DNA of 64,000 nucleotides from Albidovulum sediminis. Lineage in GTDB: Bacteria; Pseudomonadota; Alphaproteobacteria; Rhodobacterales; Rhodobacteraceae. The notes below the pieces were generated by a model. It was not told the DNA's origin. It saw only the letters and a list, made by a program, of their open reading frames with translations, and searched no databases. The stretch lies in assembly GCF_025380365.1 (NCBI RefSeq), contig NZ_JAOCQF010000003.1, forward strand, positions 124,001 to 188,000, written 5' to 3'. Positions 6,257 through 62,910 of the stretch are shown here, one piece after another; positions within the stretch are counted from its first letter, which is position 1, and every line of letters begins with the position of its first letter. A program made the translations under genes and the position numbers.

Positions 6257-6438
6257 GGTTCCCTCCCATCAGGCCGGAACACGTGCCGTGATCCGGCGGC
6301 GGGATACTACCACCGATCGCGGGGTTTCGGTCGGGCCAAGGTGCCGGCCGGGGCAGGGAATCCACTCGTTTCGAGGGGTGCCGCGCTACCGGGACGGGAG
6401 GAGCGATCACGCCTGCACGCGCAGGCGGCGTGGTGCGC

Positions 6439-6915
6439 CTAGTGCAGGTGCCCGCGGAACTCCGCGACGACTCGCTCATAGACGTCGCGCTTGAACGGGA
6501 CGATGCCGGCAATCAACTCGTCAGCGGTGATCCAGCGCCACTCGGAGAACTCCGGATGCTCGGTCGCGATGTCGATCTGGTCGTCGCGGCCCAGATAGCG
6601 GAACAGGAACCAACGCTGCTTCTGCCCGCGGTACTTGCCGCCCCAGACCTTGCCCAGAAGCTCGGGCGGCAGATCGTAGGTCAGCCAGTCGCTGCTGCGC
6701 GCGACAAGGCTCACCAGCTCGGGCGCGATCCCCGTCTCTTCCCGAAGTTCGCGCAGCGCCGCAGCGCGCGGCCTTTCGCACTTGTCGATGCCCCCTTGCG
6801 GCATCTGCCAGGCGGCAACCGGGCTGTCGAACCTTTGTCCGGCAAAGATCCGTCCCTCCGCATTGATCAGCATCACCCCCACGCAGGGGCGGTAGGGAAG
6901 ATCTTCCGCCTTCAC
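6439..6915 (-). CDS. rppH: RNA pyrophosphohydrolase (Nudix)
   Basis: Removes pyrophosphate from the 5-prime triphosphate end of mRNA and so starts RNase E-dependent decay. 158 residues. A perfect Nudix box begins at GGIDKCE and ends REETGI (GX5EX7REUXEEXGU). The RppH-type N-terminus [11 protein letters not shown] and the later [17 protein letters not shown] segment separate it from other Nudix enzymes. It starts with GTG at 6915, 3 bp after the ctpA stop, and is the last gene of the rsfS-rlmH-gpmI-envC-ctpA-rppH operon, so its expression is tied to ribosome and envelope functions. Confidence 0.95.
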
Positions 6916-6918
6916 CGG

Positions 6919-8256
6919 CTACTTCGCCTCGGCGATGGCTGACAGGCCCTTGAGGATGTCGATGGCATAGGCCAGCTGATAGTCTTCCTGCCGCAGCTTC
7001 GCCGCCTGCTCCGCGCGCGCCTGTTCTTCCTCCAGCACGCGCTTCTCGTCCTCGGTGACGGAATCGTTCGTCAGGCTTCCGCGCAGGGTGGCCTCGGTGC
7101 GGGCGCGATCGGCCGCGCTTGCGTCTTCCTCGGGCTCCTGCGGGGCGACCTTGGGCTGCTCGACCAGGATGTCGGGCGCGATGCCCAGCGCCTGGATCGA
7201 GCGCCCCGAGGGGGTGTAGTAGCGCGCCGTGGTCAGGCGCATGGCGCCGTTGCCACGCAGCGGAATTATCGTCTGGACCGACCCCTTGCCGAAGCTCTTG
7301 GTGCCGACGACGATGGCGCGGTGGTGATCCTGAAGCGCCCCCGTCACGATCTCGGACGCCGAGGCGGAGCCGCCATTGATCAGCACGACGATAGGCTTGC
7401 CCTCGGCCAGGTCGCCCGGCTCGGCGTTGAAGCGTTCGCTGTCTTCCGGGTTGCGGCCGCGCGTCGACACGATTTCTCCCTTGTCGAGGAAGGCGTCCGA
7501 AACCTCGATCGCCTGGGTCAGCAAGCCGCCGGGGTTGTTGCGCATGTCGATGACGAAGCCGTTGACCTTGTCCATGCCGCCGGCATCGCTGACCGCCTTC
7601 TTCAGCCCTTCCTCGAGGTTGACATAGGTCTGGTCGTTGAACGTCGTCACGCGGATCACGACGGTATCGCCCTCAAGCCTGGCGCGGGCGGCGGTCAGCT
7701 TGATCGTGTCGCGGATGATGGAGACGTCGAACGGCTCCTCGATATCCTTGCGCACCACGGTGACCACGATCTCGGACCCGACCGGCCCGCGCATCATGTC
7801 GACGGCCTGGTCGAGCGTCAGCCCGAGGACGCTTTCGCCGTTCACATGGGTGATGAAGTCCCCCGCCTGAATCCCCGCCTCGGCCGCCGGCGTGCCGTCC
7901 ATGGGCGAGACGACCTTGATGAAGCCCTCTTCCTGGGTCACCTCGATCCCAAGCCCGCCGAATTCGCCGCGCGTCTGAACGCGCATGTCGCTGAACTCGT
8001 CTGGCGGCAGATAGCTGGAATGCGGGTCGAGCGAGGTCAGCATGCCGTTGATCGCGGCCTCGACCAGTTCGCCCGGCTTGACCTCTTCGACATACTGCGA
8101 GCGGATGCGCTCGAAGATGTCCCCGAACAGATCCAGTTGTTCATAGACCGATCCCTCCTGATCAGCCTCCTGGGCGAGGAGGGGGCCGGCGACCTGGGTT
8201 GTGAAGACCGCCCCGGCCAGCGTGCCGCTCATCACGGCCATCAGATATTTCCTCAT
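6919..8256 (-). CDS. ctpA: C-terminal processing peptidase, S41 family
   Basis: Periplasmic or membrane-anchored serine protease with a PDZ domain that trims or degrades envelope proteins, including peptidoglycan hydrolases in well-studied bacteria. 445 residues with an N-terminal signal or anchor (1-29). The PDZ domain runs about 95-175 (GEFGGLGIEV, AGIQAGDFITHVNG). The protease core has the nucleophile S299 in GGSASASEIV and K324 in SFGKGSVQT, exactly 25 residues apart as in Tsp. The C-terminal tail (about 375-430) is charged and helical. Its gene follows the envC-like gene by 3 bp. That fits a module in which a protease controls amidase activation, though the link here is inferred from context. 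Confidence 0.95.
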   Translation of the reverse strand: MRKYLMAVMSGTLAGAVFTTQVAGPLLAQEADQEGSVYEQLDLFGDIFERIRSQYVEEVKPGELVEAAINGMLTSLDPHSSYLPPDEFSDMRVQTRGEFGGLGIEVTQEEGFIKVVSPMDGTPAAEAGIQAGDFITHVNGESVLGLTLDQAVDMMRGPVGSEIVVTVVRKDIEEPFDVSIIRDTIKLTAARARLEGDTVVIRVTTFNDQTYVNLEEGLKKAVSDAGGMDKVNGFVIDMRNNPGGLLTQAIEVSDAFLDKGEIVSTRGRNPEDSERFNAEPGDLAEGKPIVVLINGGSASASEIVTGALQDHHRAIVVGTKSFGKGSVQTIIPLRGNGAMRLTTARYYTPSGRSIQALGIAPDILVEQPKVAPQEPEEDASAADRARTEATLRGSLTNDSVTEDEKRVLEEEQARAEQAAKLRQEDYQLAYAIDILKGLSAIAEAK

Positions 8257-54290: not shown

Positions 54291-55695
54291 CGCGCCCTTC
54301 GCGCTGACGCTTCGCCAGAACAATACCGAACGGCTTTACTGCCTGAACGACCGCGCCGAGGCGGCGGGGCTGCATCGCGGCATGCCCTTCGCCGATGCCC
54401 GCGCCTTCTGCCCTGACCTGCACAGCGCTCCGGCCGCTCCCCCGCGCGATGCGCGCTTCCTTGCGATGCTGCGCCGCTGGGCCACGCGCTATTGCCCATG
54501 GGTGGGTTTCGAGGGGGAGGACGGGCTGGTCCTGGACATCACCGGATCGGCCCATCTGTTCGGCGACGAAGCAGCGATGCTGACGGACATGCACGCGCGG
54601 CTGTCGCGCGCGGGGCTGACGGTGCGGCTGGGGCTTGGCGCCACGCGCGGGGCGGCCTGGGCCTTTGCCCGTTTCGGCGGGGCGGCGTTTCGGGCCGGGG
54701 GCGACAGGGATGCGCTTGGCCGCCTGCCCGTCGCCGCCCTGCGGCTTGAGGCGGATACGGTCACCGCGCTGGAGCGGCTGGGGCTGCGCACCATCGCCGA
54801 CCTGGCCGCCACGCCACGCGCACCGCTTGCCCGGCGCTTCGGCCCCGCGGTGCTGATGCGGCTGGACCAGGCGCTTGGGGCCCGTGCCGAACAGATCGCG
54901 CCCGAGGCCGAGGCGCCCCACTACGGCGTCCGCCTGACCCTGCCCGAGCCGATCGGGCTGGTCGATGACGTGATGGCGGGAACCGCGCGGCTGATCGACC
55001 GGCTCTGCGCCCGGCTGAAGGACAACGCGGCGGGCGCCCGCGTCCTGTGCCTGACGCTGCGCCGGGTCGACCAGGCCAGCCAGCAGGTGGAACTGCGCCT
55101 GGCCAGCGCGCTGCGCGATCCGGCCCGCATCCTGCCGCTCTTCGAACGCGGGGTCGGTGCGGTTGAAGCAGGTTTCGGCATCGACCAGATGCGGCTTGAG
55201 GCGACGGTCGTCGAGCCCCTTGCCGTCGAACAGCTCGGCTCCATCCCGCGCCGGGGGGGTGGCGGCGGCGGCGACCGGATCGAGGATTTGATCAACCGCA
55301 TCGGCACGCGGATCGGGCTGGAGAACATCCGCCGCTTCCTGCCCGCCGACAGCCATATCCCCGAACGCAGCTTCCTGGTCGCGCCCGCCGCCTGGTCCCG
55401 GTCCGAAGGGGCCTGGGTCGCGCTGCGCCCGCGCCCGCCGATCCTGTTCCGGCCCGAACCGATCGCGGGCACCGGCCCCCGCCCCCCCGGACAGTTCCGC
55501 TGGCGGCGAATGGGCTTCGACACGGCGCGCGCCACCGGCCCCGAACGCATCGCCCCGGAATGGTGGCTGGAGGACGACGGCTGGCGCACGGGCGTGCGCG
55601 ACTACTGGCATGTCGAGACCCGGCAGGGCCGGCGGCTGTGGCTGTTCCATACGCCGCAGAACCCCGGCTGGTTCGTGCAGGGGGAATTCGCATGA
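54205..55695 (+). CDS. imuB: Inactive Y-family polymerase homologue ImuB
   Basis: 496 residues. The Y-family fold is present (LASDRVLRLRP, ADARAFCPDL, thumb and little-finger regions around LGLRTIADLAATP), but the catalytic acidic triad of DinB is not in the usual positions; the start WFPRLASDR replaces DxD. ImuB bridges ImuA, the sliding clamp and DnaE2. QLGSIPR near 355-361 resembles a clamp-binding motif (inference). The ATG at 54205 is chosen from homology; the frame opens earlier. Overlaps dnaE2 by ATGA. Confidence 0.9.
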   Translation: MFDGITRRVVSMWFPRLASDRVLRLRPVDAPFALTLRQNNTERLYCLNDRAEAAGLHRGMPFADARAFCPDLHSAPAAPPRDARFLAMLRRWATRYCPWVGFEGEDGLVLDITGSAHLFGDEAAMLTDMHARLSRAGLTVRLGLGATRGAAWAFARFGGAAFRAGGDRDALGRLPVAALRLEADTVTALERLGLRTIADLAATPRAPLARRFGPAVLMRLDQALGARAEQIAPEAEAPHYGVRLTLPEPIGLVDDVMAGTARLIDRLCARLKDNAAGARVLCLTLRRVDQASQQVELRLASALRDPARILPLFERGVGAVEAGFGIDQMRLEATVVEPLAVEQLGSIPRRGGGGGGDRIEDLINRIGTRIGLENIRRFLPADSHIPERSFLVAPAAWSRSEGAWVALRPRPPILFRPEPIAGTGPRPPGQFRWRRMGFDTARATGPERIAPEWWLEDDGWRTGVRDYWHVETRQGRRLWLFHTPQNPGWFVQGEFA

Positions 55696-58600
55696 CCCGC
55701 AAGGCCGCCGCCCCGCTGCGCCCCCACAACCGGCCCGGCTATGCCGAACTGTGCGTCACCACCAACTTCACCTTCCTGACCGGCGCCTCCCACCCCGAGG
55801 AGATGGTCGCGCGGGCCGCCGAACTGGGGCTGGAGGCGATCGCCATCACCGACCGCAATTCGCTGGCCGGCGTGGTCCGGGCCTATTCCGCCCTGAAGGA
55901 GTTGCGGCGCGAAGCCGAGGAGACCTTGCGCATCCGGTCGCAGCACCGGATCGACCCCTGTTCGCGCCAGGAAATCGGCCAGCCGGAAGGCATCGCCCGC
56001 CCCGCTCTGCCCCATCCCGTCCCGCCCCATTCCCCCGGCCCGCGCCTGCCGCGGCTGATCGTGGGCTGCCGCCTGGTCCTGGCCGACTGCCCGGTCGAAT
56101 GGATCGCGCTGCCCACCGACCGGCCCGCCTATCACCGGCTTTGCCGCCTTCTGACGCTGGGCAAGCGGCGGGCGGAGAAGGGGGGGTGCCTGCTCCATCT
56201 CTCCGACCTTCTGGAAGGGTGCCGGGGCATGGTCCTGATCGCCCTGCCGCCCGCCGACCTGTCCCGCGCCCTGCGCCCGGTCCAGACCATGCGGCGGCGC
56301 TATCCCGATCATGTCTTCCTCGGTGCCGCGCCGCGCTATGACGGCTCGGACCAGGCCTGGTTCGACGCCTGCGCGACGCTTGCGCTGCGCGTCTCGGCGC
56401 CGATGGTGGCGGTGGGCGATGTGCTGATGCACCGCGCCGGGCGGCGGCAACTGGCCGATGTGCTGACCTGCCTGCGCGAAGGCTGCACCATCGACCGGAT
56501 CGGCACGCGGGCGCTGCCCAACGCCGAACGCCGGCTGAAGGGCGCGGAGGACATGGCGCGGCTTTACCGCAACCACCTGGCCGCGGTCCGCCGCACGCTG
56601 GAGATCGCGGCGCGCTGCAGCTTCTGCCTGAGCGAGCTGAGCTACGAATACCCGGACGAGATTTCGGACGGCGAAACCCCGCAGCAACGGCTTGAGCGGC
56701 TGACGGCCGAGGGATTGGCCCGGCGCTGCCCGGAGGGCATCCCCGACCGTTACCGCGCGCTTGCGGAAAAGGAGATCCGGCTGGTCGGAGACCTGGGCTT
56801 CGCCGCCTACTTCCTGACCGTCCACGACATCGTGAGCCATGCCCGCTCGATCGGCATTCTCTGCCAGGGGCGCGGGTCGGCGGCGAATTCGATCCTTTGC
56901 TGGGCGCTGGGCATCACCGATGTCTCGCCCGACATGATCAGCATGGTGTTCGAGCGTTTCGTGTCGAAGTACCGGGGCGAACCGCCCGATATCGACGTCG
57001 ACTTCGAGCATGAGCGGCGGGAAGAGGTCATCCAGTGGATCTACCGGAAATACGGCCGCCACCGCGCCGGGCTCTGCGCCACGGTGATCCACTTCCGATC
57101 CCGCGCCGCGATCCGCGAGGTGGGAAAGGTCATGGGCCTGTCGCAGGACGTCACCGCCAGCCTTGCGGGCCAGATCTGGGGCATGTCGAACGGGGGCGCC
57201 GACCCCGACCGCATCCGCGAACTGGGTCTCGACCCGCGCGACCGGCGGCTGTCGCAGACCATCCGCCTGATCGGAGAGATCATCGGCTTCCCCCGCCACC
57301 TGTCGCAGCATGTCGGCGGCTTCGTCATCACCCGCGGGCGGCTGGACGAGCTTTGCCCGATCGAGAACGCGGCGATGGAGGATCGCACCGTCATCGAATG
57401 GGACAAGGACGACATCGACGCGCTGGGCATCCTCAAGGTCGACGTCCTGTCGCTCGGCATGCTGACCTGCATCCGCAAGGCCTTCGACCTGCTGCGGGAT
57501 CACGACAGGACCGATCTGACCATCGCGACGATCCCGCAGGAGGACCGGGCGACCTACGACATGCTCTGCGTGGCCGATGCGGTGGGGGTGTTCCAGGTTG
57601 AAAGCCGGGCGCAGATGAACTTCCTGCCCCGGATGCGGCCGCGCACCTTCTACGACCTGGTGATCGAGGTCGCGATCGTCCGTCCCGGCCCGATCCAGGG
57701 CGGCATGGTGCAGCCCTACATCCGCCGCCGCCAGGGGCATGAGGCGGTCAGCTTCCCCTCGAAGGAACTCGAGGGCGTCCTGGGCAAGACGCTGGGGGTG
57801 CCGCTTTTCCAGGAACAGGCGATGCAAATCGCCGTGGTCGCCGCGGGCTTCACCGCCGAGGAGGCAGACCGCCTGCGCCGGTCGCTGGCCTCGTTCCGGC
57901 GCATGGGCACGATCGGCGCCTTCCGGGACAAGTTCATCGCCGGGATGCTCGCCAACGGCTACACCCCCGAATTCGCGGAACGCTGCTTTTCCCAGATCGA
58001 GGGCTTCGCCGACTACGGCTTTCCCGAAAGCCATGCCGCCGCCTTCGCGATGCTCACCTATGTCTCGTCCTGGCTGAAGCGGCACCACCCGGCTATCTTC
58101 GCCTGCGCGCTGCTGAATTCGCAGCCGATGGGCTTTTACGCCCCGGCGCAGATCGTGCGCGACGCCCGTGAACACGGGATCGAGGTGCGCCCCGTCTGCG
58201 TCAACCGCAGCGACTGGGACAACCGGCTGGAACGGCGCCCCGACGGGGCACTGGCGCTCAGGCTCGGCTTTCGCCAGATCCGGGGCCTTCGGGAAGAGGA
58301 TGCGCGCTGGATCGTGGCGACGCGCGGCAACGGTTTTCCCGACCCCGAAAGCCTGTGGCTCCGGGCCGGCGTGTCGCCTTCGGTGCTGGAACGGCTGGCC
58401 GAGGCGGATGCCTTTTCCGGCATGGACCTGACCCGTCGCGACGCGCTCTGGCAGGTGCGTGCGATCCGCGCCCCGGCGCCGCTGCCGCTGTTCGCCGACC
58501 CTATCGACGGCGAGGGCATCCGTGAACCGCAGGTCGAACTGCCCGCCATGCACCTGGGCGAAGAGGTGGTGGAGGATTACGTGGCGCTGCGCCTGTCGCT

Positions 58601-59072
58601 GCGCGCCCACCCGATGGAGCTTCTGCGCGCCTCCCTCCCCGGCCTGACCCCGCATGTGGAACTGGCAACGGCACCGCCGCGGCCACTTTCCGTCTGCGGC
58701 CTTGTCATCACCCGCCAGCGCCCCGGCACCGCCTCGGGCGTGATCTTCCTCACGCTCGAGGATGAGACGGGCGTGTCGAACGTGGTCGTCTGGCCCAAGG
58801 TCTATGAACGCTTCCGCCGGGCGGTCATGGGCGGGCGGCTCTTGCGGGTGACGGGCCGGCTGGAGCGCGAGGGTATCGTCGTGCACCTGATCGCCGATCG
58901 GATCGAGGATCTGTCACACCGCCTGTCCGAGCTTGGCCACCCGCTGGACGGGGCCGTGGGGATCACGCAGCCCCAGGCCGACGACGCGCCGCGCCCGCCC
59001 CGCCAGCCGGCGCGCGCACGTCACCCGCGCGAACAGGCCAAGCAGCTGTTCCCCAGCCGCGATTTCCACTGA
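55692..59072 (+). CDS. dnaE2: Error-prone DNA polymerase DnaE2 (ImuC)
   Basis: 1,126 residues, C-family polymerase. PHP domain at the N-terminus (YAELCVTTNFTFLTGASHPE). The catalytic palm contains DIDVDFEHERRE, GRGSAANS in LCQGRGSAANSI, and LKVDVLSLGML. A helix-hairpin-helix and OB domain follow (VFLTLEDE-type segment IFLTLEDETGVSNVVVWP). About 45 residues rich in Pro and Arg are inserted in the PHP domain (about 74-120) relative to shorter homologues. It performs lesion bypass with ImuB. The ATG follows the imuB stop (ATGA). Confidence 0.95.
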   Translation: MTRKAAAPLRPHNRPGYAELCVTTNFTFLTGASHPEEMVARAAELGLEAIAITDRNSLAGVVRAYSALKELRREAEETLRIRSQHRIDPCSRQEIGQPEGIARPALPHPVPPHSPGPRLPRLIVGCRLVLADCPVEWIALPTDRPAYHRLCRLLTLGKRRAEKGGCLLHLSDLLEGCRGMVLIALPPADLSRALRPVQTMRRRYPDHVFLGAAPRYDGSDQAWFDACATLALRVSAPMVAVGDVLMHRAGRRQLADVLTCLREGCTIDRIGTRALPNAERRLKGAEDMARLYRNHLAAVRRTLEIAARCSFCLSELSYEYPDEISDGETPQQRLERLTAEGLARRCPEGIPDRYRALAEKEIRLVGDLGFAAYFLTVHDIVSHARSIGILCQGRGSAANSILCWALGITDVSPDMISMVFERFVSKYRGEPPDIDVDFEHERREEVIQWIYRKYGRHRAGLCATVIHFRSRAAIREVGKVMGLSQDVTASLAGQIWGMSNGGADPDRIRELGLDPRDRRLSQTIRLIGEIIGFPRHLSQHVGGFVITRGRLDELCPIENAAMEDRTVIEWDKDDIDALGILKVDVLSLGMLTCIRKAFDLLRDHDRTDLTIATIPQEDRATYDMLCVADAVGVFQVESRAQMNFLPRMRPRTFYDLVIEVAIVRPGPIQGGMVQPYIRRRQGHEAVSFPSKELEGVLGKTLGVPLFQEQAMQIAVVAAGFTAEEADRLRRSLASFRRMGTIGAFRDKFIAGMLANGYTPEFAERCFSQIEGFADYGFPESHAAAFAMLTYVSSWLKRHHPAIFACALLNSQPMGFYAPAQIVRDAREHGIEVRPVCVNRSDWDNRLERRPDGALALRLGFRQIRGLREEDARWIVATRGNGFPDPESLWLRAGVSPSVLERLAEADAFSGMDLTRRDALWQVRAIRAPAPLPLFADPIDGEGIREPQVELPAMHLGEEVVEDYVALRLSLRAHPMELLRASLPGLTPHVELATAPPRPLSVCGLVITRQRPGTASGVIFLTLEDETGVSNVVVWPKVYERFRRAVMGGRLLRVTGRLEREGIVVHLIADRIEDLSHRLSELGHPLDGAVGITQPQADDAPRPPRQPARARHPREQAKQLFPSRDFH

Positions 59073-59082
59073 GCCGGCTGCG

Positions 59083-59871
59083 TCAGAACCGCAGCGACAG
59101 GCAGGACATGCCGCCGTCGAGCTTGGCACATTCGCTGTTGCCGATCTCCTGCACGCGGTAGCCGGCCTTGCGCAGGCTTTCGGCCGTTTCGGGAAAGCCC
59201 GCCGCCATCAGCACGACATCGTTGTAGCGGATCGCGTTGGCCGCGGCCTCCTCCCCCGGCGCGGTCAGGATCACGCGGTAGCCGTCGAAGCAGCCCGACT
59301 GCGCCAGCCGCCCGGTCGCCAGGATCGTCTGGCCGTCGAGGAGCGAGCAGTCGGTCTTGAAATGGAGAACGCCGTCCGGCACCCGGATTTCGCGCAGGCT
59401 CCGGCCCCAGTCGGCCAGGATCGCGCGCAGTTCCGCGATGCCCGCCGCGTTGGTGCGCGCCGACTGGCCCACCAGAACCTCCCGCGGGGTGAAAAGGATG
59501 TCGCCCCCCTCGATCGTGCCGGGGCCGCGGATTTCCCGCACCTCGGCGAAGAGCCCGCGGATCACGGGCGCCATTTCGGCGACCTCGCCCGCCCGCGACG
59601 GCGCGCCGGGCCGCATCAGGACCGCCCCTTCGGGCAGACAAAGCGCCGTATCCTCGACGAAAAGCGCATCGGGAAACGGCTCGAGCGGGGGCAGTTCGAC
59701 CACCTCTGCCCCGGCCGCGCGCAGGGCCGCGACGTAATCGGCATGATGTTTCAGCATCAGGCCAAGATCCGGCGCGCCGGTATCGACGGCACGCAGGCCA
59801 TGGGTGACGCTTTCGCCGGGGCGGCGGGTGATCGCGCGGGTGAACTGCCAGGAGGGGTCGGTCCGGGTCAT
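59083..59871 (-). CDS. Dimethylarginine dimethylaminohydrolase family protein
   Basis: 262 residues, pentein fold of the arginine deiminase/amidinotransferase group. The catalytic Cys is C257 in GGMSCLSLRF, the His is H170 in VLHFKTDCS, and FVEDTALCLPEGAVLMRPGA with E73 and D74 and GTIEGGDILF match dimethylargininases (DDAH). It would convert methylated arginines to citrulline plus methylamine or dimethylamine. It is the last gene of a minus-strand operon with an aminotransferase and TetR regulator, 34 bp downstream of the aminotransferase. Other penteins of this group act on related guanidines, so the substrate is probable, not certain. Confidence 0.87.
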   Translation of the reverse strand: MTRTDPSWQFTRAITRRPGESVTHGLRAVDTGAPDLGLMLKHHADYVAALRAAGAEVVELPPLEPFPDALFVEDTALCLPEGAVLMRPGAPSRAGEVAEMAPVIRGLFAEVREIRGPGTIEGGDILFTPREVLVGQSARTNAAGIAELRAILADWGRSLREIRVPDGVLHFKTDCSLLDGQTILATGRLAQSGCFDGYRVILTAPGEEAAANAIRYNDVVLMAAGFPETAESLRKAGYRVQEIGNSECAKLDGGMSCLSLRF

Positions 59872-59905
59872 CGGGTGCAGCCTTTCAATCGTCGGTCTGA
59901 AGGGG

Positions 59906-61096
59906 TCATGCCTCGGCCCGCTGGCCGGACAGGGACAGGGAATGCGCGACCATGCGACCGCTGGCGGTGCGGAAGCGGTCGTCGTCCACGGTCAGCGCCA
60001 CGCGGACCCAGCCGCCCAGCGTTTCGCCGAACGCCGATCCGGGCATCACCGCGACGCCTGCATCCAGAAGCCCCAGGGCAAAGTCGCGGTCCGACAGGCC
60101 GCTGGACCGGACATCCACCAACGCGAACATCCCCGCCTCTGGCCGGTGGACGCCCAGCGCCGTCTGCTGGGTCAGAAGGTCGGCCAGATAACGGGCGCGG
60201 GCGGCGAACCGCGCCCGCATCCCGCGCGCGGCCTCGGAGGGCCGGGACACGGCCTGCGCGGTCATGTCGGCGATGAAGGGCTGGTTTCCGAACAGCATGG
60301 TTTCCGACAGGGCCAGCAGACGGTCCGCGAACTCCCTCGACCCGACGCACCAGCCCGAACGGAAACCCGGTGCGGCGTGGGACTTGGAGATCGAGGCCAC
60401 GACGACAACCCTGTCGGCGAAGCCCGTGCGCGCCAGGGGCGAGACGAAGGTCACGCCGTCGAATACCAGTTCCTCGTAAACCTCGTCGGAGATGATCCAG
60501 AGGTCGTGTTCCACCGCCAGCCGCCCGATCGCGTCGATATCCCCGGCGGTCAGGACCGCGCCGGTGGGATTGTGCGGCGTGTTGAGGAGGATGGCACGCG
60601 TGCGCGGCCCGATCCGTTCGGCCAGATCCTGCGCCGACAGGCGAAACCCGTTTTCGGCCCGAAGCGGTACGGGAACCACGCGCGCACCGGATGCGGCGAT
60701 GACGCCTTCGTAGGTCGCATACATCGGGTCGCCCACCAGGATCTCGCATCCCGGCTCGGCAATGCCCATCAGAACGGCATAAAGCGCGGTCTGGGTTCCC
60801 GGAAAGCACAGGACCTGATTGGGGTGCACCGGCCTGCCCAGGCGGGCGGCGTATCGGGCGGCCAGGGATTCGCGCAGGTTGTGCTCCCCCCGGCCGTCGG
60901 AATACTGCGTCCGGCCGGCGCGCATGGCGGCCACGGCGGCCTCGACCAGATCGGCCGGTGCGGGCACGTCCGGGTTGCCGATCGTCAGGTCGACGACATC
61001 CTCCCCCGCCGCAATGCGCTCCCGTGCGCGCACGTGCAGTTCCCACTTCGCGCCGCCCAACCCGGCCAACCTGTCCAGAACGGGTGAATATCTCAT
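59906..61096 (-). CDS. Class I/II PLP-dependent aminotransferase
   Basis: 396 residues, fold type I. Substrate and PLP motifs: LTIGNPDVPAPADLVEAA, YSDGRGEHNLRESLA, NTPHNPTGAVL (Asn for PLP), ISDEVYEELVFDG, and the Schiff-base lysine K238 in SISKSHAAPGFRSGW. It ends with an Arg-containing VRVALTVDDDRF. The amino donor is not determined. Being coupled to a TetR gene and followed by a dimethylargininase, it may transaminate a methylarginine-derived or amino acid substrate; in mammals AGXT2 transaminates dimethylarginine, so the pairing is suggestive. Confidence 0.9.
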   Translation of the reverse strand: MRYSPVLDRLAGLGGAKWELHVRARERIAAGEDVVDLTIGNPDVPAPADLVEAAVAAMRAGRTQYSDGRGEHNLRESLAARYAARLGRPVHPNQVLCFPGTQTALYAVLMGIAEPGCEILVGDPMYATYEGVIAASGARVVPVPLRAENGFRLSAQDLAERIGPRTRAILLNTPHNPTGAVLTAGDIDAIGRLAVEHDLWIISDEVYEELVFDGVTFVSPLARTGFADRVVVVASISKSHAAPGFRSGWCVGSREFADRLLALSETMLFGNQPFIADMTAQAVSRPSEAARGMRARFAARARYLADLLTQQTALGVHRPEAGMFALVDVRSSGLSDRDFALGLLDAGVAVMPGSAFGETLGGWVRVALTVDDDRFRTASGRMVAHSLSLSGQRAEA

Positions 61097-61740
61097 CCCT
61101 TCGCCTCGTCTTCCGCAAGATCAATGCCGATGATCGCCCCGACAGAGCGCAGGCCGATCCGTATCAGTTCGCCGCCTTCGAACGCCTCGGGCAGCGCTCC
61201 GGCCTCCAGCCAAAGTCCGTCGAGAACCGCGTTGCTGGCGATGGCCAGTTGCCGTTCCTCCGACGCGGGCACCCCGCGCCCGGCTTCGGCCAGCGCGTCG
61301 GCGATGCGGCGCTGAAGCAGATCCCGGTAGTGGAGGTAGGTGCCCTCGTGCGTCTTGCGCATGGCCGGATCGCGCCAGACCATGTGGATGAATCCGGCCC
61401 AGAGCGACAGCGCCTCGGGCGCGGCCACCGGCGGCGTGACGGAGGCTACGATCATCCGGGCCAGACGTTCCCGCGCGCCATCACGCCCCGGCATCGCGGC
61501 GGCGTCGATCACCTGGGTCTGGCCAAGCATGTGAAACCGGTAGGCGGCGTTCAGAAGATCCTCTTTCGAGCTGAAATAGTGACGAATCATGCCCTGCGTC
61601 ACACCGGCCTCCTGCGCGATCGCGCGAACGGTCGCCGCCGCCGGACCATGCCGGGACACAAGCGTCAGGGTGGCGCGCATCAGCGCCTCCTTGCGGCTTT
61701 CGGGGGGTTCGCGCCGGAAGATGCGTCGGGGTTCGGCCAT
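61093..61740 (-). CDS. TetR/AcrR-family regulator
   Basis: 215 residues from ATG 61740. N-terminal helix-turn-helix: KEALMRATLTLVSRHGPAAATVRAIAQEAGVTQGMIRHYF, and a helical ligand-binding domain with SLWAGFIHMVWRDPAM, like BetI. It is the first gene of an operon with the aminotransferase and dimethylargininase (ATGA overlap). A near-perfect -10 box within a palindrome lies 12-31 bp before the ATG, so it probably represses itself. The frame is open to 62121 but only as a shadow. Confidence 0.93.
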   Translation of the reverse strand: MAEPRRIFRREPPESRKEALMRATLTLVSRHGPAAATVRAIAQEAGVTQGMIRHYFSSKEDLLNAAYRFHMLGQTQVIDAAAMPGRDGARERLARMIVASVTPPVAAPEALSLWAGFIHMVWRDPAMRKTHEGTYLHYRDLLQRRIADALAEAGRGVPASEERQLAIASNAVLDGLWLEAGALPEAFEGGELIRIGLRSVGAIIGIDLAEDEAKG

Positions 61741-61751
61741 GGGTCCAACAA

Positions 61752-61771
61752 AATTATACAAACGCATAATT
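61752..61771 (-). promoter_or_regulatory. TetR operator palindrome overlapping a near-leaderless promoter
   Basis: AATTAT-N8-ATAATT (perfect 6-bp arms). The minus-strand -10 box TATAAT is at 61758-61753, so transcription would start within a few bases of the ATG at 61740, giving a nearly leaderless mRNA. No convincing -35 was seen at 16-18 bp. The rest of 61772-62029 holds no gene I can support. Confidence 0.65.
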
Positions 61772-62029: not shown

Positions 62030-62910
62030 ATGCAAGCGCCGTCGAAGACAGGGGAAGGAACCGCGAAGGAGGTCTTCCTCGCCCTCCTCAAGCTAGGGCT
62101 TACCTCGTTCGGCGGGCCCATCGCGCACCTGGGCTACTTCCGGGACGAGCTGGTGATCCGGAGGCAGTGGCTTGATGAGCGTGCCTATGCCGATCTCGTG
62201 GCGCTGTGCCAGTTCCTGCCGGGGCCGACATCGACGCAGACCGGGTTCGCCATCGGTCTGATGCGGGCGGGCTGGGCCGGAGCACTGGCGGCCTTCGTGG
62301 CCTTTACCCTGCCTTCTGCGCTGATGCTCGGTGCCTTTGCACTGGCAGGGGCAGGGATCGGACGACCAATCGGAGAAGGCGCGCTGCACGGGCTGAAGCT
62401 GGTCGCCGTCGCCATCGTGGCACAGGCCGTCTGGGGCATGGCTCGCAGTCTATGCCCCGATCGCACCCGGACGGGAATCGCCGCCGGGGCTTTGCCCTGC
62501 TGGCATTCCTGGCCGTCATGCTCCTCTTGCCCCTGATTGCGGGGACGTCGCAGGCCCTGGCCTTCGTCGACTGCTACTTCCGCGCGGGCGCGCTGGTCTT
62601 CGGTGGAGGGCATGTGGTCCTGCCCATGCTACAGGCCGAAATCGTGGCGCCCGGCTGGGTTTCGCCCGATCGGTTTCTTGCCGGTTACGGTGCGGCGCAG
62701 GCGGTTCCCGGGCCGCTGTTCACCTTCGCGGCCTATCTTGGCGCGGTCACCCCGGTCGAGCCGAATTGATTGCCCGGCGCGGTCGGGAACAGCACGGACT
62801 TTGCCTTGGCGCTTGCCAGCTTCCTGCTGCTGGTCGTCTGGAAGGCTCCGCCGTGGTTCGTCGTCGTCGCAGCCGCGATGAGCGGCGCGACCCTCACACT
62901 GCTTGCCTGA
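62030..62910 (+). pseudogene. Broken chromate transporter chrA
   Basis: The first half of a ChrA protein starts at ATG 62030: FGGPIAHLGYFRDEL, ALCQFLPGPTSTQTGFAIG, LVAVAIVAQAVWGMARS. The frame then fails near 62480, and the second half continues in another frame: FRAGALVFGGGHVVLPMLQA and GYGAAQAVPGPLFTFAAYL. A stop (TGA 62767-62769) follows EPN, and the last piece after it, in the same frame, is FALALASFLLLVVWKAPP. About 290 residues are encoded where intact ChrA has about 400. So the gene has a frameshift with loss near 62480 and a deletion of roughly 90-100 residues near 62770. It is not expected to be functional. Confidence 0.85.

Follow-up and report, generated by a model that had tools for sequence, protein, structure and literature searches.

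Three tightly joined genes on the minus strand of the window, a stretch of 64,000 nucleotides of DNA from the marine-type bacterium Albidovulum sediminis, probably form a TetR-repressed operon for methylarginine and arginine catabolism, which would represent a reduced copy of an arginine-transaminase regulon with an added gene for a DDAH-type hydrolase. The genes are arranged in the order tetR (61093–61740; 215 aa, with a BetI-type C-terminal domain), a gene for a PLP-dependent class I/II aminotransferase (AT; 59906–61096; 396 aa), predicted to be an AruH/AspC-like arginine:pyruvate transaminase, and the DDAH-type gene (59083–59871; 262 aa), whose product is predicted to convert N-methylarginine to citrulline and methylamine or dimethylamine. 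The stop codon of tetR and the start codon of the AT gene overlap by 4 bp (ATGA, 61093–61096, minus strand), which likely couples their translation, and the AT and DDAH genes are 34 bp apart, confirming the original prediction that the three genes are joined by overlap or short gaps. All three frames are open, with GC3 values of 0.80–0.87. No ABC importer genes adjoin tetR in the window, and no gene for an AruI-type decarboxylase lies in the 34-bp gap between the AT and DDAH genes; the operon is a pared-down copy without importer and linked AruI. A chromate-transporter-like frame adjoining the operon is broken.

Enzymes encoded by the operon

The best match of the DDAH-type hydrolase in the PDB was the DDAH of Pseudomonas aeruginosa (3rhy; E = 8e-54) with 101 of 252 positions identical (40%), and 11 of the 14 PDB sequences matched are DDAHs. 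Residues D68, E73, D74, R93, R139, H170 and C257 of the window enzyme correspond to D60, E65, D66, R85, R132, H162 and C249 of the P. aeruginosa enzyme, and all ten catalytic or binding positions checked are identical. At the positions assigned to the α-amino, carboxylate and guanidino groups of the substrate, the window residues are the same as in P. aeruginosa. In an alignment of 67 rows, eight of the ten positions agree in 66–67, whereas L18 is kept in 62 and Glu114 is replaced by Asp in 18. According to the PDB records, the crystallised proteins 1h70 and 3bpb carry changes at C249 and H162, and exchanging the catalytic Cys for Ser abolished the activity of the P. aeruginosa enzyme, as cited in a passage of PMC10256801. 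The window enzyme scored below the cut-offs of the NCBIfam models NF045658 for dimethylargininase (210.7 bits, cut-off 450) and NF045660 (173.3 bits, cut-off 340). Because such equivalog cut-offs are a criterion for the transfer of names rather than a biochemical one, we call the protein DDAH-type and do not transfer the name DDAH itself. It shares the key residues of the P. aeruginosa enzyme (1h70/3rhy) but differs from it by these scores and by its operon partners, an aminotransferase and a TetR regulator. CtlX, a putative citrullinase of the same Pfam superfamily (PF02274), was rejected as an identity of the hydrolase, which contains FPDALFVED and HFK and lacks the FPNN and HTN motifs of CtlX; the latter has been implicated in the use of citrulline by Phaeobacter, according to excerpts of PMC9007349.

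The scores below the equivalog cut-offs would also fit a different substrate, in that the DDAH-type enzyme and then AT may act on one unusual guanidino amino acid, e.g. a hydroxylated or otherwise N-substituted arginine, instead of methylarginine. Guanidino-modifying enzymes are versatile; nevertheless, the α-amino, carboxylate and guanidino positions agree with those of the P. aeruginosa enzyme, and we regard such a substrate as distinctly improbable.

The AT belongs to Pfam family Aminotran_1_2 (214 bits) and scored below the cut-off of every NCBIfam model among the best 25 of 79. The best of these was GntC with 255.5 bits, and MppQ was among the PDB matches, which raised the idea that the operon makes a guanidino natural product by GntC/MppQ-like chemistry. 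The GntC match stays below the cut-off of 415 and is unspecific, because a different aminotransferase from Roseibium reaches a higher score with this model (275.1 bits). Moreover, no further biosynthetic genes were recognised alongside, and the gene context in relatives consists of an importer and catabolic enzymes. Therefore, we rejected a biosynthetic function, which is very improbable.

The TetR regulator and its candidate operator

The regulator scored above the cut-offs of both Pfam domains TetR_N and TetR_C_6, a combination it shares with BetI-type repressors; it differs from these by its score on the BetI equivalog model (86 bits, cut-off 201.3) and by its gene context. With the DNA-binding domain TetR_N and a palindromic operator predicted by comparison, it has the features of the TetR family. 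The palindrome spans 20 bp (61752–61771) and reads AATTATGC-N4-GTATAATT on the minus strand. It includes a perfect dyad of AATTAT and ATAATT spaced by 8 bp, whose 6-bp arms (61752–61757 and 61766–61771) match exactly, as originally claimed.

The window sequence agrees with all 16 defined positions of the 20-bp pattern, a score reached by none of 300 random sequences with like dinucleotide make-up, and the pattern occurs at a single place in the 4.29-Mb genome even with up to three mismatches allowed. Upstream of tetR, at least 12 of the 16 positions matched in 28 of the 34 regions compared, and the other six stayed below this threshold; these counts are partly circular, since the consensus had been derived by eye from these very loci, and leave out eight of 41 loci without a TetR match at 1e-15 (L089, L092, L093, L095, L097 and L100–L102). 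Seven of eight further loci outside the consensus, some of them close kin of consensus members, also reached at least 12 of 16 (L104, 13; L105, 16; L121, 14; L122, 15; L123, 13; L125, 13; L126, 16), the exception being L124; L180, likewise outside the consensus, scored 14. In the 28 regions scoring at least 12 of 16, to which this comparison was confined, pairwise identity was 76% inside the palindrome versus 27–38% in the flanking 10-bp blocks. The conservation of the palindrome across genera, next to flanks which fail to align, provides strong comparative evidence for a candidate TetR operator.

The original prediction also placed the −10 box of a near-leaderless promoter inside the dyad. 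A TATAAT sequence is indeed present (61753–61758, minus strand), with five of its six bases in one arm and the sixth outside it. Its role as a promoter element was not borne out, because comparison by eye of TTGACA with the hexamers located 16, 17 and 18 bp upstream gave 0, 0 and 2 matches in six positions, and a scan with the sigma-70 consensus yielded no promoter (0.1 expected). If TATAAT were the −10 box, this would imply a leader of about 6 nt; lacking a −35 box, a near-leaderless transcript stays conditional. Repression controlled by the product, as further proposed, is a guess.

Related loci and the arginine-transaminase core

The core unit in relatives consists of a Lys/Arg-type ABC importer next to the genes tetR-AT-AruI, AruI being a 2-ketoarginine decarboxylase. 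Genes for AruI-type decarboxylases directly follow the AT orthologues in 22 of 33 relatives; the AT genes of the two closest relatives (75% and 71%) are also followed by AruI. Three of the decarboxylases scored 702 (L008), 705 (L012) and 708 bits (L121) on model PRK07524 (cut-off 500). Two of the importer binding proteins (L003 and L104) were scanned; for both, the best family was Lys/Arg/Orn, at 223 and 222 bits, short of the cut-off of 256. Judged by these genes, the core appears to be an arginine-transaminase operon of the AruH/AruI type which recruited DDAH, rather than a DDAH pathway with a helper enzyme. An AruI-like gene gave no match at 1e-60 in eight of the 33 AT-containing genomes outside the own one; three of these genomes are incomplete (G008, G022 and G166, the last with an AruI fragment where a contig ends), whereas completeness is at least 98% for G135, G170, G120, G150 and G088, indicating that AT can exist without AruI.

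The AruH-AruI pair of P. aeruginosa and AspC-IlvB1 of Sinorhizobium meliloti resemble the loci of the relatives in combining an aminotransferase with an adjoining PRK07524-type 2-ketoarginine decarboxylase, and the likeness extends to the Lys/Arg/Orn-type importer in relatives and to an Ensifer locus of the same layout (tetR-AT-AruI next to ABC genes). The window operon differs from these systems by the missing decarboxylase, the added DDAH gene and the adjacent TetR control; AruH-AruI is controlled by the two-component system AruRS. The rhizobial AspC/IlvB1 pair is the likely counterpart of the AT-AruI unit. According to passages of PMC7268258, S. meliloti AspC, with the AruI-like IlvB1 encoded downstream, has measured arginine:pyruvate transaminase activity and also accepts ornithine, agmatine and putrescine, and IlvB1 prefers 5-amino-2-oxopentanoate sevenfold over 2-ketoarginine. 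Given this substrate range, such operons could in reality act on ornithine.

We also weighed the possibility that the operon serves arginine or ornithine only, DDAH clearing methylarginines that inhibit arginine enzymes or the transporter instead of feeding the cell. This would agree with the ornithine use of AspC/IlvB1, with AT-AruI-tetR without adjoining DDAH being the commoner form, and with the four ureohydrolase-family genes in the own genome. However, uptake for use fits better to the genomes in which importer and DDAH genes occur together without AT, namely G086, with an operator (14/16), and G093, where DDAH is the last gene of an ABC operon and no operator or tetR was seen. Because DDAH is linked to importer and/or operator without AT in these few genomes, they point to a methylated arginine as substrate, and we consider an arginine- or ornithine-only operon rather unlikely.

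Ruegeria pomeroyi DSS-3 (SPO_RS20095–20130) and Phaeobacter inhibens DSM 17395 (PGA1_RS19255–19290) contain tetR, AT and DDAH genes of the same kinds as the window, with operators scoring 13 and 16 of 16, respectively. Unlike the window, they keep AruI and the importer (ABC next to tetR-AT-AruI-DDAH); their annotation is generic ('arginine deiminase family protein') and names no methylarginine function. In G198, an AT-AruI operon with an operator (15/16) has no tetR in the 18 kb fetched, and tetR, ABC and DDAH genes occur elsewhere in the genome with their own operator(s), which argues for one regulon. An AruI-DDAH pair is present in G030. DDAH has joined or left the regulon more than once. 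Of 198 genomes, 19 contain both AT and DDAH versus 6.9 expected, in a statistic that ignores phylogeny, and 31 of 35 further DDAH loci showed no AT, AruI, tetR or ABC marker beside DDAH. Some loci are duplicates with identical DDAH (L004/L169, L014/L185, L024/L168), and L071 and the Phaeobacter porticola plasmid NZ_CP016365 contain the same DDAH position.

Compared to these loci, the window copy might be a relic with little present function, having lost AruI from the AT-DDAH gap and the importer beside tetR, next to a broken frame; a search with the binding protein alone gave a best match of 35% identity in the own genome. However, all three genes are open with the GC3 values given above, the key residues of DDAH are intact, the operator is complete, and L009, L010 and L015 share the tetR-AT-DDAH form while keeping importer genes. 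A relic is unlikely on these grounds, and we continue to prefer a catabolic operon. The original idea of a nitrogen-recovery pathway from methylated arginine is partly supported by the DDAH residues, the AruI-adjacent AT orthologues, the conserved palindrome and the importer links in relatives, and needs changing in that arginine transamination is the core, DDAH being recruited, and the window has neither importer nor linked decarboxylase.

Possible partners elsewhere in the genome

A diverged AruI-like gene (39%) is present at an unlinked site (G000:C11:1941689–1943242). Such a gene occurs in all four genomes with tetR-AT-DDAH but without AruI (the own one, L009, L010 and L015) and in none of the other eight compared alongside, so it is possible that it replaces the lost AruI of the operon. 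We grade this no higher because G031, G043 and G193 carry both genes, and because 60 of the 198 family genomes, including 56 that lack AT, carry the unlinked gene (E ≤ 1e-150). Being common and under-represented together with AT (4 versus 10.3 expected), it may have another job. No operator with at least 12 of 16 positions was present in 17 kb around it. The own genome also contains a gmaS-type gene scoring above its cut-off in a gmaS/N-methylglutamate-type cluster of the methylamine-assimilation type, which could use released methylamine.

Proposed pathway and its significance

We propose that the operon originated from a TetR-controlled arginine-transaminase regulon of Alphaproteobacteria by reduction and addition of the DDAH gene. 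TetR would bind the 20-bp palindrome covering the −10-like box and switch off its own operon until released by an arginine-like ligand (arginine, methylarginine or a derived keto acid). DDAH would then convert N-methylated arginine to citrulline and methylamine or dimethylamine, and AT would transaminate arginine with pyruvate, yielding 2-ketoarginine; methylarginine, ornithine or citrulline may be further amino donors. In relatives, AruI would decarboxylate the latter towards 4-guanidinobutyrate and GABA, whereas the diverged unlinked gene may supply this step in the own organism, and its gmaS/N-methylglutamate-type cluster could assimilate the methylamine. In this scheme, gene order, conserved active-site residues, operator conservation and the recurrent linkage come from computation, whereas the substrates, the inducer, repression and the part played by the unlinked gene are inferred.

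Research on bacterial DDAH has centred on its enzymology and on its value as a model of the human enzyme, and to our knowledge little is known of its use by bacteria. Among the papers listed, we found no bacterial methylarginine regulon, and literature searches for bacterial methylarginine catabolism and for the R. pomeroyi locus tags gave nothing useful; the main text of a paper on R. pomeroyi transporters (PMC10130141) contains no SPOA00 tag and mentions arginine once. The kinds of components are already known, and the unusual point is that they are brought together under a single common DNA switch which recurs in many relatives. As a tentative extension, these loci may form a methylarginine regulon, in which one TetR-type (methyl)arginine sensor and one 20-bp palindrome control a dedicated importer, DDAH and an arginine-transaminase route, assembled repeatedly in Rhodobacterales; methylated arginine from decaying protein would then be a marine nutrient, and dimethylamine would enter methylamine metabolism. 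The conserved operator and the repeated importer linkage offer a direct handle on the use of DDAH by bacteria in two strains that are easy to handle in the laboratory, P. inhibens DSM 17395 and R. pomeroyi DSS-3. If the proposal is true, methylated arginine would be a source of nitrogen and methylamine in the sea, and TetR-type methylarginine sensors could be found by their operator.

Organization of the operon and predicted identity of its products

On the minus strand, tetR (61093–61740) is followed in the same orientation by AT (59906–61096), coding for a class I/II PLP-dependent aminotransferase, and then by the gene for a DDAH-type hydrolase (59083–59871). The original prediction that they are joined by overlap or short gaps was borne out by an ATGA overlap between tetR and AT and a spacing of 34 bp between AT and the DDAH gene. 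The window belongs to contig C14; the whole genome, 4.29 Mb with a completeness rating of 100%, contains one DDAH match at E ≤ 0.001. Downstream, 10 bp separate the end of dnaE2 (55560–59072, plus strand) from the DDAH stop codon, and a broken chromate-transporter-like frame (62030–62536) lies upstream. In the latter gene (62030–62769), a 168-aa frame covers positions 2–136 of 368, and the C-terminal half seemingly carries on in another frame, as judged by eye. A DDAH gene was also observed at dnaE2 in genome G194 (L198, 3127–7870), where it sits within dnaE2 (6429–7271, minus strand): residues 55–1061 of DnaE2 match on one side of it and the C-terminal part (1027–1170) on the other. This DDAH and that of the window share only about 49% identity.

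The hydrolase matched 14 distinct sequences in the PDB, 11 of which are DDAHs, the best being the Pseudomonas aeruginosa DDAH 3rhy (E = 8e-54; 101 of 252 aligned residues identical). It carries the same residue as the Pseudomonas enzyme at all ten positions checked (L18, D60, F63, E65, D66, R85, E114, R132, H162 and C249, Pseudomonas numbering); those other than C249 and H162 presumably have functional roles in the P. aeruginosa enzyme. The ten positions are kept in 62–67 of 67 aligned rows, except for E114, which is Asp in 18. Catalytic roles of C249 and H162 are supported by altered crystallised forms among the PDB matches and by PMC10256801. Because its score is under the NCBIfam dimethylargininase cut-offs, we refer to the enzyme as DDAH-type. 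The best NCBIfam model for the AT is GntC (255.5 bits), an unspecific match, since another aminotransferase, one of Roseibium, reaches 275.1 bits on the same model. The regulator has a TetR_N and a BetI-type C-terminal domain; its score is too low for an assignment as BetI.

A conserved probable operator upstream of tetR

The perfect 6-bp dyad noticed originally is present and forms part of a larger, 20-bp palindrome, AATTATGC-N4-GTATAATT (61752–61771). Scored by a 16-position pattern derived from the same loci, this operator reached at least 12/16 in 28 of the 34 regions upstream of tetR, with 16/16 in the window, and less than 12/16 in six (L072, L085, L087, L088, L099 and L013, whose tetR is unlinked to DDAH). 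Seven of eight further AT/tetR loci showed 13–16/16, and the eighth (L124) had no operator at ≥12/16. Mean pairwise identity was 76% within the 20 bp versus 27–38% in the surrounding 10-bp blocks. The inner C and G of both half-sites, which lie outside any −10 box, are invariant in 28/28 loci, and conservation therefore tracks the palindrome. With up to three mismatches allowed, the strain's own genome has one such site.

Loci with separated genes tie the parts of the operon together. Genome G198 has tetR, an ABC importer and DDAH at one locus (L002, operator 15/16) and AT with aruI, coding for an AruI-type 2-ketoarginine decarboxylase, at another (L122, operator 15/16), with no tetR in the 18 kb fetched around AT-aruI. 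G199 carries tetR and the operator at both loci (L003, 15/16; L121, 14/16), and G086, with no AT at E ≤ 1e-90, has the operator (14/16) between the importer genes and a divergent DDAH gene. A second conserved element, TTGTAGTAA, was observed about 15–23 bp before the operator in L002, L003, L008, L009, L015 and L071, mainly at loci with a divergent importer; it is absent from the window and is perhaps part of the importer's promoter.

The promoter was originally placed with its −10 box in the dyad and its start point a few bases before the ATG. A TATAAT sequence indeed lies within the right half-site, where TetR, once bound, would cover a −10 box, but no −35 box was found for it and a promoter scan returned none; the near-leaderless start can therefore only be inferred. 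The operator ends ≤20 nt from the position aligned with the first residue of the window's TetR (a putative start position) in 16 of 28 loci, and annotated starts lie 37 nt (P. inhibens) and 52 nt (R. pomeroyi) from it.

Gene neighbourhoods in related genomes

The AT was detected (E ≤ 1e-90) in 34 of 198 family genomes, including that of the strain itself. In the 33 loci outside it, some cut by contig ends, tetR precedes AT in 25, an AruI-type decarboxylase gene immediately follows in 22 (two cut short), and a four-gene importer set is divergent from tetR in 10; an eleventh (L098) is reordered and of weaker identity. DDAH is the last operon gene in four (L070, L071, L073, L074), and a 115-aa DDAH-like frame in its place in L075 is apparently a remnant. 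The decarboxylases of L008 and L012 reached 702 and 705 bits on PRK07524 ('5-guanidino-2-oxopentanoate decarboxylase', cut-off 500), and the importer binding proteins of L003 and L104, the two that were scanned, gave Lys/Arg/Orn as best family (223 and 222 bits, cut-off 256). In a second set of 24 loci from a scan of genome contigs, DDAH lies inside an AT operon in five (L008, L009, L010, L012, L015) and adjoins tetR and a divergent importer without AT in two (L002, L003). Compared with the window, Ruegeria pomeroyi DSS-3 and Phaeobacter inhibens DSM 17395 have the complete arrangement on plasmids, with the importer genes divergent from tetR-AT-aruI-DDAH. As a separate association, DDAH lies one conserved frame from a different aminotransferase (28–30% identical to the AT; PRK08912 type in L017) in six loci of Stappiaceae and kin (L017–L019, L021–L023).

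One Ensifer genome has tetR-AT-aruI divergent from the importer genes, and we infer that this locus corresponds to the AspC/IlvB1 locus of Sinorhizobium meliloti. According to PMC7268258, the amino donors that AspC (SMc02262) uses with pyruvate as acceptor are arginine, agmatine, ornithine and putrescine, and the downstream IlvB1 is AruI-like, yet sevenfold more active on 5-amino-oxopentanoate; SMc02259, close to SMc02262 by number, is an ABC amino-acid binding protein according to PMC2848018. With ornithine among the substrates of AspC, the role of the AT may lie in ornithine and not arginine transamination; arginine is a substrate of AspC as well.

DDAH was found (E ≤ 1e-50) in 40 of the same 198 genomes, and together with the AT in 19 versus 6.9 expected (Fisher p = 2.6e-7, kinship ignored). 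Five of the 40 DDAH loci adjoin AT, one aruI alone (G030), two this kind of importer without AT (G086, G093) and one lies near a more distant importer set (G136); the other 31 have none of these alongside, a few showing only generic 26–34% matches some kb off. In a quick-method tree of 67 rows, operon-linked DDAHs cluster, and that of the window groups with L002 and L003 (SH-aLRT 99). Given the starred branches, the AT-linked group and the importer/TetR-linked group each require at least three changes (gains or losses), so DDAH must have moved into or out of these contexts on several occasions.

Candidate partners elsewhere in the genome and proposed function

The window operon contains no aruI. 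A diverged AruI-like gene elsewhere in the genome (L067, G000:C11:1941689–1943242), adjoining seeming Trk-type transporter genes, exceeds the PRK07524 cut-off (523 bits) and is 38–40% identical to six operon-type AruIs; it may supply the decarboxylase of the route in this strain. The importer is lacking as well, the best match in this genome to its binding protein being 35% identical. Such an unlinked gene occurs in all four genomes with AT-DDAH but without AruI, and in 60 of 198 family genomes, more rarely with AT than expected (4 vs. 10.3). A third AruI-like gene (L146, G213:C64:26000–39500; 43% identical to the strain's unlinked copy) adjoins, by eye, seeming ureohydrolase, transporter and aldehyde dehydrogenase frames, as expected for a full 2-ketoarginine route. 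The strain's own genome has four ureohydrolase-family genes, and one further gene exceeds the cut-off for the type III glutamine synthetase/GMAS type (as does one in 1 of 14 control genomes), a gene type that includes GMAS. This gene (L205) adjoins frames resembling N-methylglutamate synthase subunits by eye.

DDAH, arginine-transaminase route and TetR control are each of known kinds; a full-text search listed no publication joining them among its matches, which is weak evidence of absence because subscription journals are mostly outside its coverage. Most likely, TetR would bind the palindrome and thereby repress the operon, with an arginine-like ligand relieving this repression. DDAH would convert methylarginines to citrulline and (di)methylamine, the GMAS-type cluster could assimilate the methylamine freed, and the AT would provide the entry step of arginine-transaminase catabolism.
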